Assembly (NCBI GenBank): GCA_944325695.1
Contig: CALVBA010000013.1
Coordinates: forward strand, 1 to 35,543
Direction of reading: 5' to 3'
DNA from: an uncultured Anaeroplasmataceae bacterium
Lineage (GTDB): Bacteria; Bacillota_I; Bacilli_A; Acholeplasmatales; Anaeroplasmataceae
Length of the DNA: 35,543 nucleotides
This document shows positions 20,615 through 35,510 of this stretch, piece after piece. A program made the translations under genes and the position numbers. The notes beneath the pieces were generated by a model. That model had not been told where the DNA came from, searched no databases, and saw only the letters and a list, made by a program, of their open reading frames with translations. How positions within the stretch are numbered: the first letter of the stretch is position 1; the number at the start of each line of letters is the position of its first letter.

Positions 20615-21274
20615 TTATTCATTTTGTGCAATATATATAGTAATTACATATGGATAATAATCCCAAATAAGACTTCCACTTTCTAAATCTTGATTAAGAC
20701 ACGTATTTTTCAAATTTGAAGATGGAATAAAGACATACTGAAAATGAAGATGATGCTGTAATTCAAAATCAATGCAGTCATTTAAAGATTTTCCAATAAA
20801 ATTAGGCATTTGCATATTAGTATTTAAATTAGCAATGTATAATGTAATTTCATTTTCAATTTTTTTATTAGCCATTGGAAATTGGTCAATAATAATATTA
20901 TCTAATTGACTATCTACTAAAACTAAATCTAAAGTAACACCTAAATTACAGACCAATTCATCGATTAAAAATGTTACTTCATCATAACTCTTACCAACTA
21001 AAAATGGCATTAAAACGTCTTCTTTATACTTTGAAACATAAATTTCAACAATCCCATTTTTAGTGGTTTGATAGATAATTGTTCCTTCAACTTCATCTGA
21101 TTTAACATATTTAATTTTATAATTATCTTGTATTGTAATATTATTAATATTTTTACCAATAACATTTTCTAATATCGTCATTTTTGTTGGTAAAAAAAGT
21201 TCAAATAGAAAATATATAATAATAGCTACATCAATAATAAAACTGATAATAAGGATTTTTTTTATTGTTATCAC
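20615..21274 (-). CDS. Membrane-anchored PASTA-repeat protein, PrkC remnant without kinase domain
   Basis: A 219-residue protein with a six-residue cytoplasmic tail, one TM helix (about residues 7-28) and an outer part of three PASTA-like repeats: about 32-83 (degenerate), 88-150 (MPFLVGKSYDEV) and 155-217 (MPNFIGKSLNDC). In B. subtilis this place between rlmN and rsgA holds prpC and prkC, whose product has about 330 cytoplasmic kinase residues before a TM and PASTA repeats. Here the frame begins just at the TM; an in-frame TAA stands two codons before the GTG start, and no Shine-Dalgarno is present upstream. It may be a surviving muropeptide-binding anchor or a decaying gene. Confidence 0.8.
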   Translation of the reverse strand: MITIKKILIISFIIDVAIIIYFLFELFLPTKMTILENVIGKNINNITIQDNYKIKYVKSDEVEGTIIYQTTKNGIVEIYVSKYKEDVLMPFLVGKSYDEVTFLIDELVCNLGVTLDLVLVDSQLDNIIIDQFPMANKKIENEITLYIANLNTNMQMPNFIGKSLNDCIDFELQHHLHFQYVFIPSSNLKNTCLNQDLESGSLIWDYYPYVITIYIAQNE

Positions 21275-25863: not shown

Positions 25864-26088
25864 AAATAAAAATAGTCCTTGAATATAATCCAAGGACGAA
25901 TATAAACTCGCGGTACCACCTTAGTTCTAGTAAAAAACTAGCACTCGAAACTTTTAACGCAAGCAACGGGTGGGATTAGCACCATTCCAAAGTGAATTCA
26001 TTAAATTCTTTTTAGGAATTTTCACCAACCATTCCCTCTCTTAAAAAATAAATTTAATTACTACTCTTCTTCAACACATTAATATACG
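25864..26088 (-). promoter_or_regulatory. Phenylalanine T-box riboswitch leader of pheST
   Basis: The minus strand shows the T-box AAGGTGGTACCGCG (25909-25922), which includes the UGGU that pairs with the ACCA end of tRNA-Phe. Upstream are a stem I with GAGAGGGAAUGGUUGGUG (apical AG-bulge type segment, about 26023-26040) and a probable UUC specifier codon at 25994-25996 followed by A. Downstream is the terminator GTCCTTG / CAAGGAC (25875-25881, 25891-25897) with a T-rich run at 25864-25874. The specifier and the pheST target agree with each other. Uncharged tRNA-Phe would stabilise the antiterminator. Confidence 0.92.
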
Positions 26089-26123: not shown

Positions 26124-26303
26124 GACTATTAAAGTAGTATTCCTGCTTTTTTCTATTTGATTTAATTGACATATTTTTATTTTTTTTTAAATTTATACTT
26201 TTTGCCAATTTCATAACAATAAAATGTCAATTATTATGAAGATATGTAGAATAATTACTTTTTATATATCTTTTAAAAATCATACTTTAAGAAGATTAAA
26301 TAT
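26124..26303. other. AT-rich intergenic stretch without a recognisable gene
   Basis: About 180 bases of very AT-rich DNA between the pheST promoter and the terminator of the membrane-protein cluster. TTGACA occurs at 26166-26171 on the plus strand and again on the minus strand at 26225-26230, forming an imperfect inverted repeat, but neither has a -10 at proper spacing. Two short open frames (26116-26214 minus, 26224-26313 plus) lack ribosome binding sites. I see no supported function. Confidence 0.5.
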
Positions 26304-26343
26304 AAAAAAGTGAGGATTTGATAAAAATCTTGTCCTCACTTTT
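26304..26343 (-). terminator. Terminator of the membrane-protein cluster (possibly bidirectional)
   Basis: Arms AAAAGTGAGGA (26306-26316) and TCCTCACTTTT (26333-26343). On the minus strand the 3' arm runs into six Ts then ATATTTA. The plus-strand T-run is weaker. It lies 38 bases after the last cluster gene, preceded by another small palindrome at 26350-26368. Confidence 0.8.
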
Positions 26344-26380
26344 ATATTTAACTTTTATCGATAAAGTTTTAATATTCAAC

Positions 26381-26860
26381 TTATCGACGATTTTTTTGAT
26401 ATTCTCTTTCAGCCATTTTATATAAAGCTTCTTGTTGGTTTTTACGGCGCATCACGGCTAAGTTCATGCGTTCAATCTTACTTTTTCTAATTCTTCTAAA
26501 AAAAGAGCTAATAATGAAGAACACTAAAATTATTCCAACTGAAATATAAATTCCGTCAATATTTTCAAATGTTACAAATGAAGCACTAAACTTTTCTAAA
26601 ATTTCTCCACTAAGGAAAGTTGAAGTAAATTCAATGATCGGCAAATATATTGTTTGTGATAACATTCCGACAAAATCTTGATATGCTTTCATAAATGTAG
26701 TATTAGCTTCTTCAATATAAACTTTTGAAGATATAACAATTATAAAAGATCCAAAAATAGCTAAAATTAGTCCAAAAATAAAACCATTTCGTTTTGAAAA
26801 AATCATAATTAATAATATAAATACAATACCAATTAAATAAGGTAAAAAATCATTAAACAT
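26381..26860 (-). CDS. Small three-TM membrane protein, cluster member D
   Basis: A 159-residue protein, not recognised. TM1 about 6-22, the conserved connecting motif IFSKRNGFIFGL (about 20-31), TM2 about 28-46, an outer segment (about 50-112) and TM3 about 104-122, then a long basic tail with RRIRKSKIERM and further Arg/Lys to the end. It is the last of four consecutive genes with this build. The positive loop between TM1 and TM2 and the positive tail suggest N-out, C-in topology. The tail is about 20 residues longer than in the other members and looks helical. ATG with AGGAGGTG. Confidence 0.82.
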   Translation of the reverse strand: MFNDFLPYLIGIVFILLIMIFSKRNGFIFGLILAIFGSFIIVISSKVYIEEANTTFMKAYQDFVGMLSQTIYLPIIEFTSTFLSGEILEKFSASFVTFENIDGIYISVGIILVFFIISSFFRRIRKSKIERMNLAVMRRKNQQEALYKMAEREYQKNRR

Positions 26861-26917
26861 TGACTACACCTCCTAAGTTTATAAACATTCATCCCTTCTA
26901 ATTTTGTCCAAATAAAA

Positions 26918-27373
26918 CTATAGACTGCGATATTTACGTTTTAGACGTTTATATTTTCTAATGCGATGTTTACGTAGTGATGAAGCAATAGCATGGAAGA
27001 TAATCCATAAAACAATTGTTCCTATTAATAAATATAACGGATTATTTGTAAATGTAGCTATTTCACTATTAGTAATGATAGTTTCAATAATATTTAATCC
27101 ACCAATAAAAAGTACAGATTGGATCGAAAATGCTTCTTTAATTACAGATAATAAATTTGGATCTTTAATAATATTAGTGATATTTTCTCCAAACGAATCT
27201 ATAATCATAAATCCAGCAACAGGAAGTAAAATTCCTACAAAGATTGTTACGAAAAAACCATGTATGAAATTATATCTTTTGGCAGAAAAACATCCAAATA
27301 TAATCGGTAATAATAAAATTATTATTCCAATTAATGAATATTTTTGGGTAAGATCCATTAAAATTATGTTCAT
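26918..27373 (-). CDS. Small three-TM membrane protein, cluster member C
   Basis: A 151-residue protein of the same build as its neighbours. TM1 about 10-27, motif CFSAKRYNFIHGF (about 27-39), TM2 about 36-56, outer segment about 57-115, TM3 about 114-132, and a strongly basic tail rich in RKHRIRKYKRLKRK. Start choice: the frame stays open to 27448, but a strong promoter (TTGCAT to TATAAT, 27420-27448) lies in that stretch, and the ATG at 27373 has AAAGGA at good distance, so 27373 is taken. No known family recognised; a distant resemblance to the CvpA-type TM pair is possible but weak. Confidence 0.82.
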   Translation of the reverse strand: MNIILMDLTQKYSLIGIIILLLPIIFGCFSAKRYNFIHGFFVTIFVGILLPVAGFMIIDSFGENITNIIKDPNLLSVIKEAFSIQSVLFIGGLNIIETIITNSEIATFTNNPLYLLIGTIVLWIIFHAIASSLRKHRIRKYKRLKRKYRSL

Positions 27374-27419
27374 TAGATCATATCCTTTCTCATTTATTTT
27401 GTCTATTTTTATCGACTTT

Positions 27420-27448
27420 ATTATACATTTTATTTTATAAAAATGCAA
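27420..27448 (-). promoter_or_regulatory. Internal promoter within the membrane-protein cluster
   Basis: Minus strand TTGCAT (27443-27448), 17-base spacer, TATAAT (27420-27425). It lies between members B and C and would drive C and D separately from A and B. Confidence 0.75.
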
Positions 27449-27469
27449 TTAACTTGATAAAAATTTCCA

Positions 27470-27889
27470 CTAATTTAAAGTGGCAATTCTTTTTAATTCT
27501 TTAATGCGATTAATTTTTCTCACCCTAAAAAAATGCGATATAATTGCTGTAATAACAAAAACAATTGACGATGCTATAAACATATAATTTTCTAAATTAT
27601 CCATTATTAAATCGACAGTTGAATAATTTAAATCAAGGCGATTTAAAAAGTTATCAATAACGTTAAAAATAATATTTTTATAATATAAAATAGCATTTCC
27701 AAAAATGTTAATCGTAGTATCTGCTTCTTCACTTATAAATGGCGTGCTGACATTTTTAATAAAAAATAAAAGTGATAACACAAAGAAAAAAGATACGATT
27801 CCAAAAAAAGAGTTATAAACTTTGGATATAACAGCACACAAACATATAATTAGAAAAAACATTAAACAACTTGATGTTAGGATATCCAT
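27470..27889 (-). CDS. Small three-TM membrane protein, cluster member B
   Basis: A 139-residue protein. TM1 about 5-20, motif VISKVYNSFFGI (about 20-31), TM2 about 28-46, outer segment about 47-100 and TM3 about 101-118, ending in a basic tail with RVRKINRIKELKR. It is the most compact of the four. ATG with GAGG at seven bases; it starts five bases after the end of member A. Unknown family. Confidence 0.8.
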   Translation of the reverse strand: MDILTSSCLMFFLIICLCAVISKVYNSFFGIVSFFFVLSLLFFIKNVSTPFISEEADTTINIFGNAILYYKNIIFNVIDNFLNRLDLNYSTVDLIMDNLENYMFIASSIVFVITAIISHFFRVRKINRIKELKRIATLN

Positions 27890-27893
27890 AATT

Positions 27894-28364
27894 TTACCTC
27901 ACTTTAGAATTCATTTTTAACGCATACATTTTGTTTCTACGATGGGTATAAAAAATACTTGAAACAGAATGTGATAAAAAGAAAATTATAATTGATGAAA
28001 ACAACAAAAGATGCATTCCATCATCGTTAAAAAAACGATTTAATTCTGCATTATCCATTTCTACAACAAGATTTTTTACCGGTTTTAAGACAATATCTGA
28101 TAAAAAATCAATTGAAGTATAATTATTATTTATATCAATCATAAAATATGACGCAATATTTTTTATTAGCATTTGATTTTCGTTAATTTGACTAGTAGAT
28201 GCAAGCCAATCACCGATTATACGAAAACTTATAATCATAATAAAACTAAATGAATAAAATGTAATTATTCCATGGATAATATTGTATTTTTTTGAAAAGT
28301 GAAATGCTAAAAATAAAGGAAAAAGCATGCTTATAAAACTACATATTAACTTAATATTTTCCAT
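27894..28364 (-). CDS. Small three-TM membrane protein, cluster member A
   Basis: A 156-residue protein and the first gene of the cluster. TM1 about 6-21, motif HFSKKYNIIHGI (about 22-33), TM2 about 30-49, outer segment about 50-118, TM3 about 119-137 and a basic tail (YTHRRNKMYALKMNSKVR). The motif is nearly the same as in member C, which shows common descent. ATG with AAGGAG at good spacing. A TATAAT-like box at 28389-28394 may be its promoter. Function unknown. Confidence 0.82.
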   Translation of the reverse strand: MENIKLICSFISMLFPLFLAFHFSKKYNIIHGIITFYSFSFIMIISFRIIGDWLASTSQINENQMLIKNIASYFMIDINNNYTSIDFLSDIVLKPVKNLVVEMDNAELNRFFNDDGMHLLLFSSIIIFFLSHSVSSIFYTHRRNKMYALKMNSKVR

Positions 28365-28432: not shown

Positions 28433-28465
28433 TAAAAAAAACGAATGTCTTTTTACATTCGTTTT
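28433..28465 (-). terminator. Terminator of the CotD-like gene
   Basis: Perfect AAAACGAATGT / ACATTCGTTTT (28438-28448, 28455-28465), loop CTTTTT, with eight consecutive Ts on the minus strand. The stem overlaps the stop codon of the CotD-like gene. Confidence 0.88.
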
Positions 28466-28739
28466 ATCGATAATTCCAATTATTCCAGTTAGAAAAACTG
28501 CTACAATTATTGTTGTTAGATATCATGCTAAAATCATCATAACAAGCACAAGACTCACTACAAGTATAATATGGAACAGGATAAAATCGTCTAATACAGT
28601 TATTTACAAAATGCGTGTGTTGATTTTGGTAATATGGGTGCATTTCGACAAAATTACGATTAACATAATTAGGCATATTATTAGTATTATTATCAAAGCT
28701 AGATGAATAATTTGGAAAGTTATAGTTTGAATTAAACAT
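28464..28739 (-). CDS. CotD-like spore coat protein
   Basis: A 91-residue low-complexity protein: Asn/Ser/Tyr-rich ends and a central part with HPYYQNQHTHFVNN followed by a Cys cluster (YYTCSESCACYDDF). The HP-Y-H-H-V-N pattern followed by spaced cysteines recalls CotD-type coat proteins; no catalytic motif. Start choice: TTG at 28745 is too near the SD AAAGGAG, while the ATG at 28739 is seven bases after it. A sporulation-type promoter precedes it and spoVM is on the same contig, both supporting a coat role. Assignment by composition and context only. Confidence 0.6.
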   Translation of the reverse strand: MFNSNYNFPNYSSSFDNNTNNMPNYVNRNFVEMHPYYQNQHTHFVNNCIRRFYPVPYYTCSESCACYDDFSMISNNNNCSSFSNWNNWNYR

Positions 28740-35164: not shown

Positions 35165-35497
35165 TTATATAAATTGTAAAATATGATATTTTGCTACATA
35201 CATTGCATTAAGCAGTGGTAAAAACTTTTTATATTGTTTTGTATTTATATCATATTTTTCTTGTGCTTTTTTAAGTTTCATAATAATCGATTCAATAGGT
35301 TTTAATGCTCTTTCAATTTCTATTTTTGAAATATTATTATTTTCTTCAATTAAACCTTTGGCAACATTCAATGCTTTAATGCGATTTACTAGTAAACTAT
35401 ATTGTGGTTTATTTGGATTAAACTTATCGAGCATTTTAGAACAATTTTTGATTGTTTGATTAATTACTTTAAGAGTTTCTTCTTTAGTATATTCCAT
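35165..35497 (-). CDS. Hypothetical protein made of two 56-residue repeats
   Basis: A 110-residue, Lys-rich, probably all-helical soluble protein, not recognised. The two halves align without gaps at an offset of 56: E6/E62, L9/L65, K10/K66, I12/I68, I16/I72, K21/K77, K25/K81, N29/N85, Q32/Q88, Y33/Y89, A42/A98, V45/V101, A46/A102, K47/K103, I50/I106. It thus arose by internal duplication. Start choice: the ATG at 35506 overlaps the AGGA SD, while the ATG at 35497 is eight bases after it. A partial hairpin with GCGGGG and a T-run at 35511-35538 precedes it and probably terminates an upstream gene outside the window. Confidence 0.72.
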   Translation of the reverse strand: MEYTKEETLKVINQTIKNCSKMLDKFNPNKPQYSLLVNRIKALNVAKGLIEENNNISKIEIERALKPIESIIMKLKKAQEKYDINTKQYKKFLPLLNAMYVAKYHILQFI

Positions 35498-35510
35498 ATT
35501 GACCATCCTA

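Follow-up and report, generated by a model that had tools for sequence, protein, structure and literature searches.

A genome fragment from an uncultured Anaeroplasmataceae bacterium carries four successive small genes, each apparently encoding a membrane protein, between polC and the phenylalanyl-tRNA synthetase genes pheS-pheT. This raises three questions: are the four related, to what family do they belong, and what might a cell do with four of them? The window, by which we mean the whole 35,543-nucleotide stretch that was analysed, lies in a 1.34 Mb genome of genus g1 that is 97% complete (G000). The four genes, which we call A to D, and the elements around them are as follows, in the direction of reading:

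28438..28465, minus strand: terminator hairpin between an Asn-rich gene and A, upstream border of the putative unit; 11-pair stem with a T run; -10.7 kcal/mol, z -4.1
27894..28364, minus strand: gene A, ORF of 156 aa, first in the quartet; loop FSKKYNIIHG
27470..27889, minus strand: gene B, ORF of 139 aa; loop ISKVYNSFFG
26918..27373, minus strand: gene C, ORF of 151 aa read from an ATG; loop FSAKRYNFIHG
26381..26860, minus strand: gene D, ORF of 159 aa; loop FSKRNGFIFG, longest basic tail in the quartet
26294..26352, minus strand: terminator-like hairpin after D, downstream border of the putative unit; GTGAGGA...TCCTCAC then T6; -20.5 kcal/mol, z -7.7
25889..26083, minus strand: T-box leader of pheST (RF00230, 132.5 bits), the downstream neighbour, outside the unit

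The minus-strand order is polC, an Asn-rich gene of 91 aa, the terminator, A, B, C, D, the terminator-like hairpin, the T-box leader and pheS-pheT. With a terminator or terminator-like hairpin on either side (the loop of the downstream one exceeded the limit of a simple terminator scanner), the quartet looks like a transcription unit of its own. Each gene has a Shine-Dalgarno-like sequence by eye, that of B being the weakest. Promoter scans yielded no more sites than shuffled sequence, and hence we assign no promoter or sigma factor. Called mechanically, the ORF of gene C starts at a TTG further upstream and encodes 176 aa; a plus-strand ORF opposite C (26961-27440) was dismissed as a mechanical antisense frame.

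Some other genes of the window deserve mention in their own right. The Asn-rich gene (28464-28739, minus strand) follows polC, contains a HTHFVNNCIRRFYPVPYYTCS stretch, has no Pfam match and resembles a CotD-type coat protein by eye; a similar gene follows polC and a Bax-inhibitor gene in G038, a genome from another family of the same order (L142 2805-3107). A 113-aa charged helical protein (35165-35506, minus strand) has no Pfam family above cut-off. The rlmN-rsgA interval in Bacilli usually holds prpC-prkC; here it holds a protein of 219 aa that has PASTA repeats and a single N-terminal helix but no kinase domain (20615-21274, minus strand), and no PF00069 kinase was found in the whole genome.

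A sequence-only reading of this DNA had described the four genes as sharing one build and an alignable loop motif, with outer segments that diverged while loop and tail were kept. Both descriptions hold. All four proteins run from TM1 through a basic cytoplasmic turn to TM2, and from there through an outer segment that varies to TM3 and a basic tail, and in the four-protein alignment identity is 47% in the loop and 22% in the tail, against 13.5% in the outer segment (TM1 20%, TM2 15%, TM3 20%); across the wider family described below it is about 48% in the loop versus about 13% in the outer segment. Net charge is +1 to +2 in the loop, -2 to -5 in the outer segment and +6 to +11 in the tail, a pattern that fits an N-terminus outside, loop inside, outer segment outside and tail inside. 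Apart from the start Met, only the turn glycine is invariant in the family alignments, and there are no conserved polar residues of catalytic type within the membrane. AlphaFold2 models of A (pLDDT 80.3; helices 2-26, 29-58, 65-74, 84-99, 105-111 and 114-155) and C (pLDDT 85.6) are alike: a tight turn joins TM1 to a long TM2, outer helices follow, and TM3, also long, continues into the tail, where both models terminate.

Because hydrophobic proteins align easily, homology was judged against controls that preserve hydropathy, namely block shuffles that preserve the TM segments (300) and decoy reading frames from sister genomes (about 850). Leave-one-out profiles, built from the rest of the family with the tested protein omitted, scored A at 41 bits (E 2.5e-11), B at 29 bits (E 2e-7), C at 67 bits (E 2.2e-19) and D at 26 bits (E 1.3e-6), far above the 10-18 bits of the best block shuffle or decoy frame; B was also matched at E 5.1e-6 by a profile built without it. 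Profiles from just the other three window genes found A (E 1.8e-9) and C (E 1e-10), and found B (0.014) and D (0.003) weakly yet in first rank. A profile made only from relatives in genus g4 gave C 56 bits, D 19.1, B 12.7 and A 12.0, with C, B and A above all of 1000 block shuffles of their own and D exceeded by one; by this score C is the copy nearest the relatives. No further copy was found in the genome at E<=0.1. The resemblance thus extends beyond transmembrane composition, and on these profile comparisons A to D are paralogues that have diverged from one another and represent a small membrane protein restricted to this lineage. Of the proposal that the genes descend from a common ancestor by tandem duplication, the descent is upheld by the leave-one-out profiles; recent duplication within this genome is not, since the tree leaves the four apart. 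Their branches are very long, so that the tree cannot decide on the matter of recent duplication.

The family comprises 27 genes in 19 genomes, all within the order Acholeplasmatales; 23 are relatives beyond the quartet. The window's genome has four copies and the eight g4 genomes have one or two apiece; a single copy occurs in 8 of 11 g7 genomes, in G007 (genus g2) and in G038. Membership is clear-cut in the profile search, the weakest member reaching 4e-15 versus 4e-4 for the best background match. The relatives first came to light when the stretch preceding pheS was read in related genomes, and then through profile searches; single-protein searches of the relatives gave no match except that of C with D (E 0.0016), and a single-protein scan of named genomes gave none. 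No family gene was found in the sampled genomes of g3, g5 and g6, nor, outside the order, among 395 genomes sampled from the class. That no named family had been recognised from the sequence agrees with searches of Pfam, NCBIfam, PHROG and PDB sequences, all without assignment, and with Foldseek searches against the PDB and viral models, which returned no fold match and so no structural match favouring any function. The family appears to be new and previously unnamed in the libraries searched, and of an ordinary kind.

The search for the same array in related genomes also bears on how the proteins might work. The idea that four subunits form an obligate hetero-oligomer is an unlikely description of the family's working unit, because most relatives have one copy and none of the g4 genomes more than two. 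A variant in which a new, order-restricted family of scaffold or channel subunits, working in wall-less and walled sisters alike, would have expanded in this genome to a hetero-oligomer of four, constant on its inner face and variable on its outer ones, strikes us as unlikely too.

Gene neighbourhoods offer a further handle. In g4 the first copy lies immediately upstream of pheST, and in two of these genomes (G003 and G030, the ones with a T-box at or above the gathering score whose gene table was read) the T-box begins at the stop codon of the family gene; second copies in G014 and G018 are located elsewhere. In g7 the family gene overlaps the start of a gene for a 313-aa membrane protein and the pair precedes pheS; in G007 it lies 34 nt after a thrS with a T-box (90.3 bits, just below the gathering score of 93); and in G038 it sits between leuS and rimM-trmD, with no T-box found before leuS. 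In most lineages the neighbours are chromosomal housekeeping genes. No partner gene is common to all lineages: the only tight one is the 313-aa protein, in g7 alone, and we rejected it as a general partner on its absence from g1, g2 and g4. This protein (L041 9793-10734 and its g7 homologues) has no Pfam family and is split into two frames in G006, and distant copies occur in G026, G008 and G076, all without a family gene. At another locus (L050, in G009) two family genes have directly upstream, on the opposite strand, a 409-aa transposase gene that by eye is of IS110 type.

Coupling of expression or function to amino-acid supply would account for the recurrence of aminoacyl-tRNA synthetase genes, since the family adjoins T-box pheST in g1 and g4, lies near pheST in g7, and is found beside thrS in G007 and leuS in G038. 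We nevertheless consider such coupling quite improbable: the adjacency was noticed after the fact, without a statistical test; the gene precedes the T-box in g1 and g4 but follows it in g2; no T-box was found before the leuS of G038, and G014 and G018 carry their second copies at other sites; and in the window itself a terminator parts the quartet from the T-box. The chromosomal housekeeping neighbourhoods of most lineages also speak against holin-like or toxin-like proteins of mobile-element origin, which the size, helix number and basic tail would otherwise suit. Phage holins (PHROG 1129 and others) are likewise small and hydrophobic with a basic tail, but holin profiles matched single members only, and weakly, and the family has no phage or viral context: conserved stretches used as queries found no relative in 2.9 million viral contigs, and the fold searches were equally negative. 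We give such an origin hardly any credence.

A role in the spore, as a membrane or coat-associated protein set, had been suggested by supposed sporulation genes nearby. The genome does carry SpoIVA, and the gene upstream of A is the one that looks coat-like by eye; however, Pfam recognises no sporulation family in the window, and a terminator separates that gene from A. More telling is the distribution. The family occurs in at least nine genomes in which SpoIVA is missing (G007 and all eight of g4), PF00905 transpeptidases are absent from these same genomes, and conversely SpoIVA-positive g3 and g6 genomes, together with two g7 genomes (G017 and G033), lack the family. Dedication to spores or to wall cross-linking is thus not supported; the family is probably not a spore protein, and a spore protein set is in our estimate very unlikely. 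The N-terminal membrane domain of SpoIIGA (PF03419) weakly matched 2 of 18 family members (best E 1.3e-4), whereas the other sixteen were unmatched and the family has no protease domain, so that the match looks like similarity of hydrophobic composition. Across the GTDB family as a whole (G000-G078), SpoIVA and PF00905 are present in g1, g3 and g7, absent from g2, g4 and g5, and mixed in g6. Wall and spore genes appear to have been lost repeatedly within this one bacterial family, and patchy loss of both traits has been described in these orders (PMC10868615).

The comparison that most resembles the quartet in layout is with CvpA, the nearest loose analogy proposed in the sequence-only reading. 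In CvpA of the same genomes, read from sequence, a short basic turn (GYKKGF) links TM1 and TM2, and an amphipathic outer segment of 60-80 residues leads to TM3, which ends in basic residues; its turn, like that of the family, is basic and has a glycine followed by Phe. In a global profile alignment TM1 to TM3 pair in order with a score of 19.9, which none of 800 block shuffles attained. The quartet could on this basis be trimmed CvpA-like proteins whose homo- or hetero-oligomers would transport or keep out a small amphipathic solute, the part suggested for CvpA in bile-salt resistance; CvpA has a link to deoxycholate resistance and is a proposed exporter (PMC6705877). Yet CvpA continues into a fourth transmembrane helix and a long C-terminal tail, both absent from the family, whose members have three hydrophobic helices instead of the four to five of CvpA. 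The profile-profile probability is only 3.6% local and 9.7% global, the local score was attained by 8 of 800 shuffles, and single CvpA sequences scored a median of 4.8 versus 4.0 for 57 ordinary membrane proteins of sister genomes. PF02674 does not match the quartet genes and is absent from the Pfam matches of all 18 members searched; across the genome it marks a CvpA on contig C12 and, weakly, one place on C23, with nothing on the window contig, and a separate true CvpA scores above the Pfam cut-off in 50 of 55 genomes of the bacterial family. The analogy of layout from TM1 to TM3 therefore stands, membership of PF02674 is not supported, and homology to CvpA is possible without being established. 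As an account of function, the trimmed CvpA-like protein seems to us doubtful.

Our preferred reading, offered tentatively, is that each member is a small scaffold or adaptor of the plasma membrane that was amplified and diverged in this genome. Starting outside with its N-terminus, each chain would make three passes through the plasma membrane. The cytoplasmic turn, [SA][KR][KR]-x-N-[FI][IL]-[HQ]-G, and the basic tail would together form a constant inner face, which may pack against or dock one conserved cytoplasmic or membrane partner, and the amphipathic outer segment would provide a variable face touching the outer leaflet or a variable client. The difference in identity between loop and outer segment indicates constraint on the inner side, chiefly on the turn and less on the tail, with an outer segment free to change, as a small scaffold or adaptor with a steady inner contact would lead one to expect, although helix-hairpin packing alone could also account for conservation of the turn. 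Since the family occurs in genomes with and without SpoIVA and transpeptidases, we place its role in the membrane itself; and since most relatives manage with one copy, we regard the quartet as an amplification. One copy would suffice in most relatives, and in this genome, with four, C may retain an ancestral-like sequence while A, B and D have specialised. The analysis shows the family, its topology signals and copy numbers, the borders of the transcription unit and the pattern of conservation; the scaffold or adaptor function, the partner and the way the copies share the work are inferred. For a small membrane protein that has no catalytic signature, such a function is the default assignment, and it is weakly constrained.

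Lineage-restricted small membrane proteins are common as a kind, and the finding is modest. Its interest lies in where the family persists: in a bacterial family in which the genes for peptidoglycan cross-linking and sporulation come and go. Among relatives of the mycoplasmas, a membrane protein that is kept without those genes becomes a candidate for a membrane function that does not depend on a wall.
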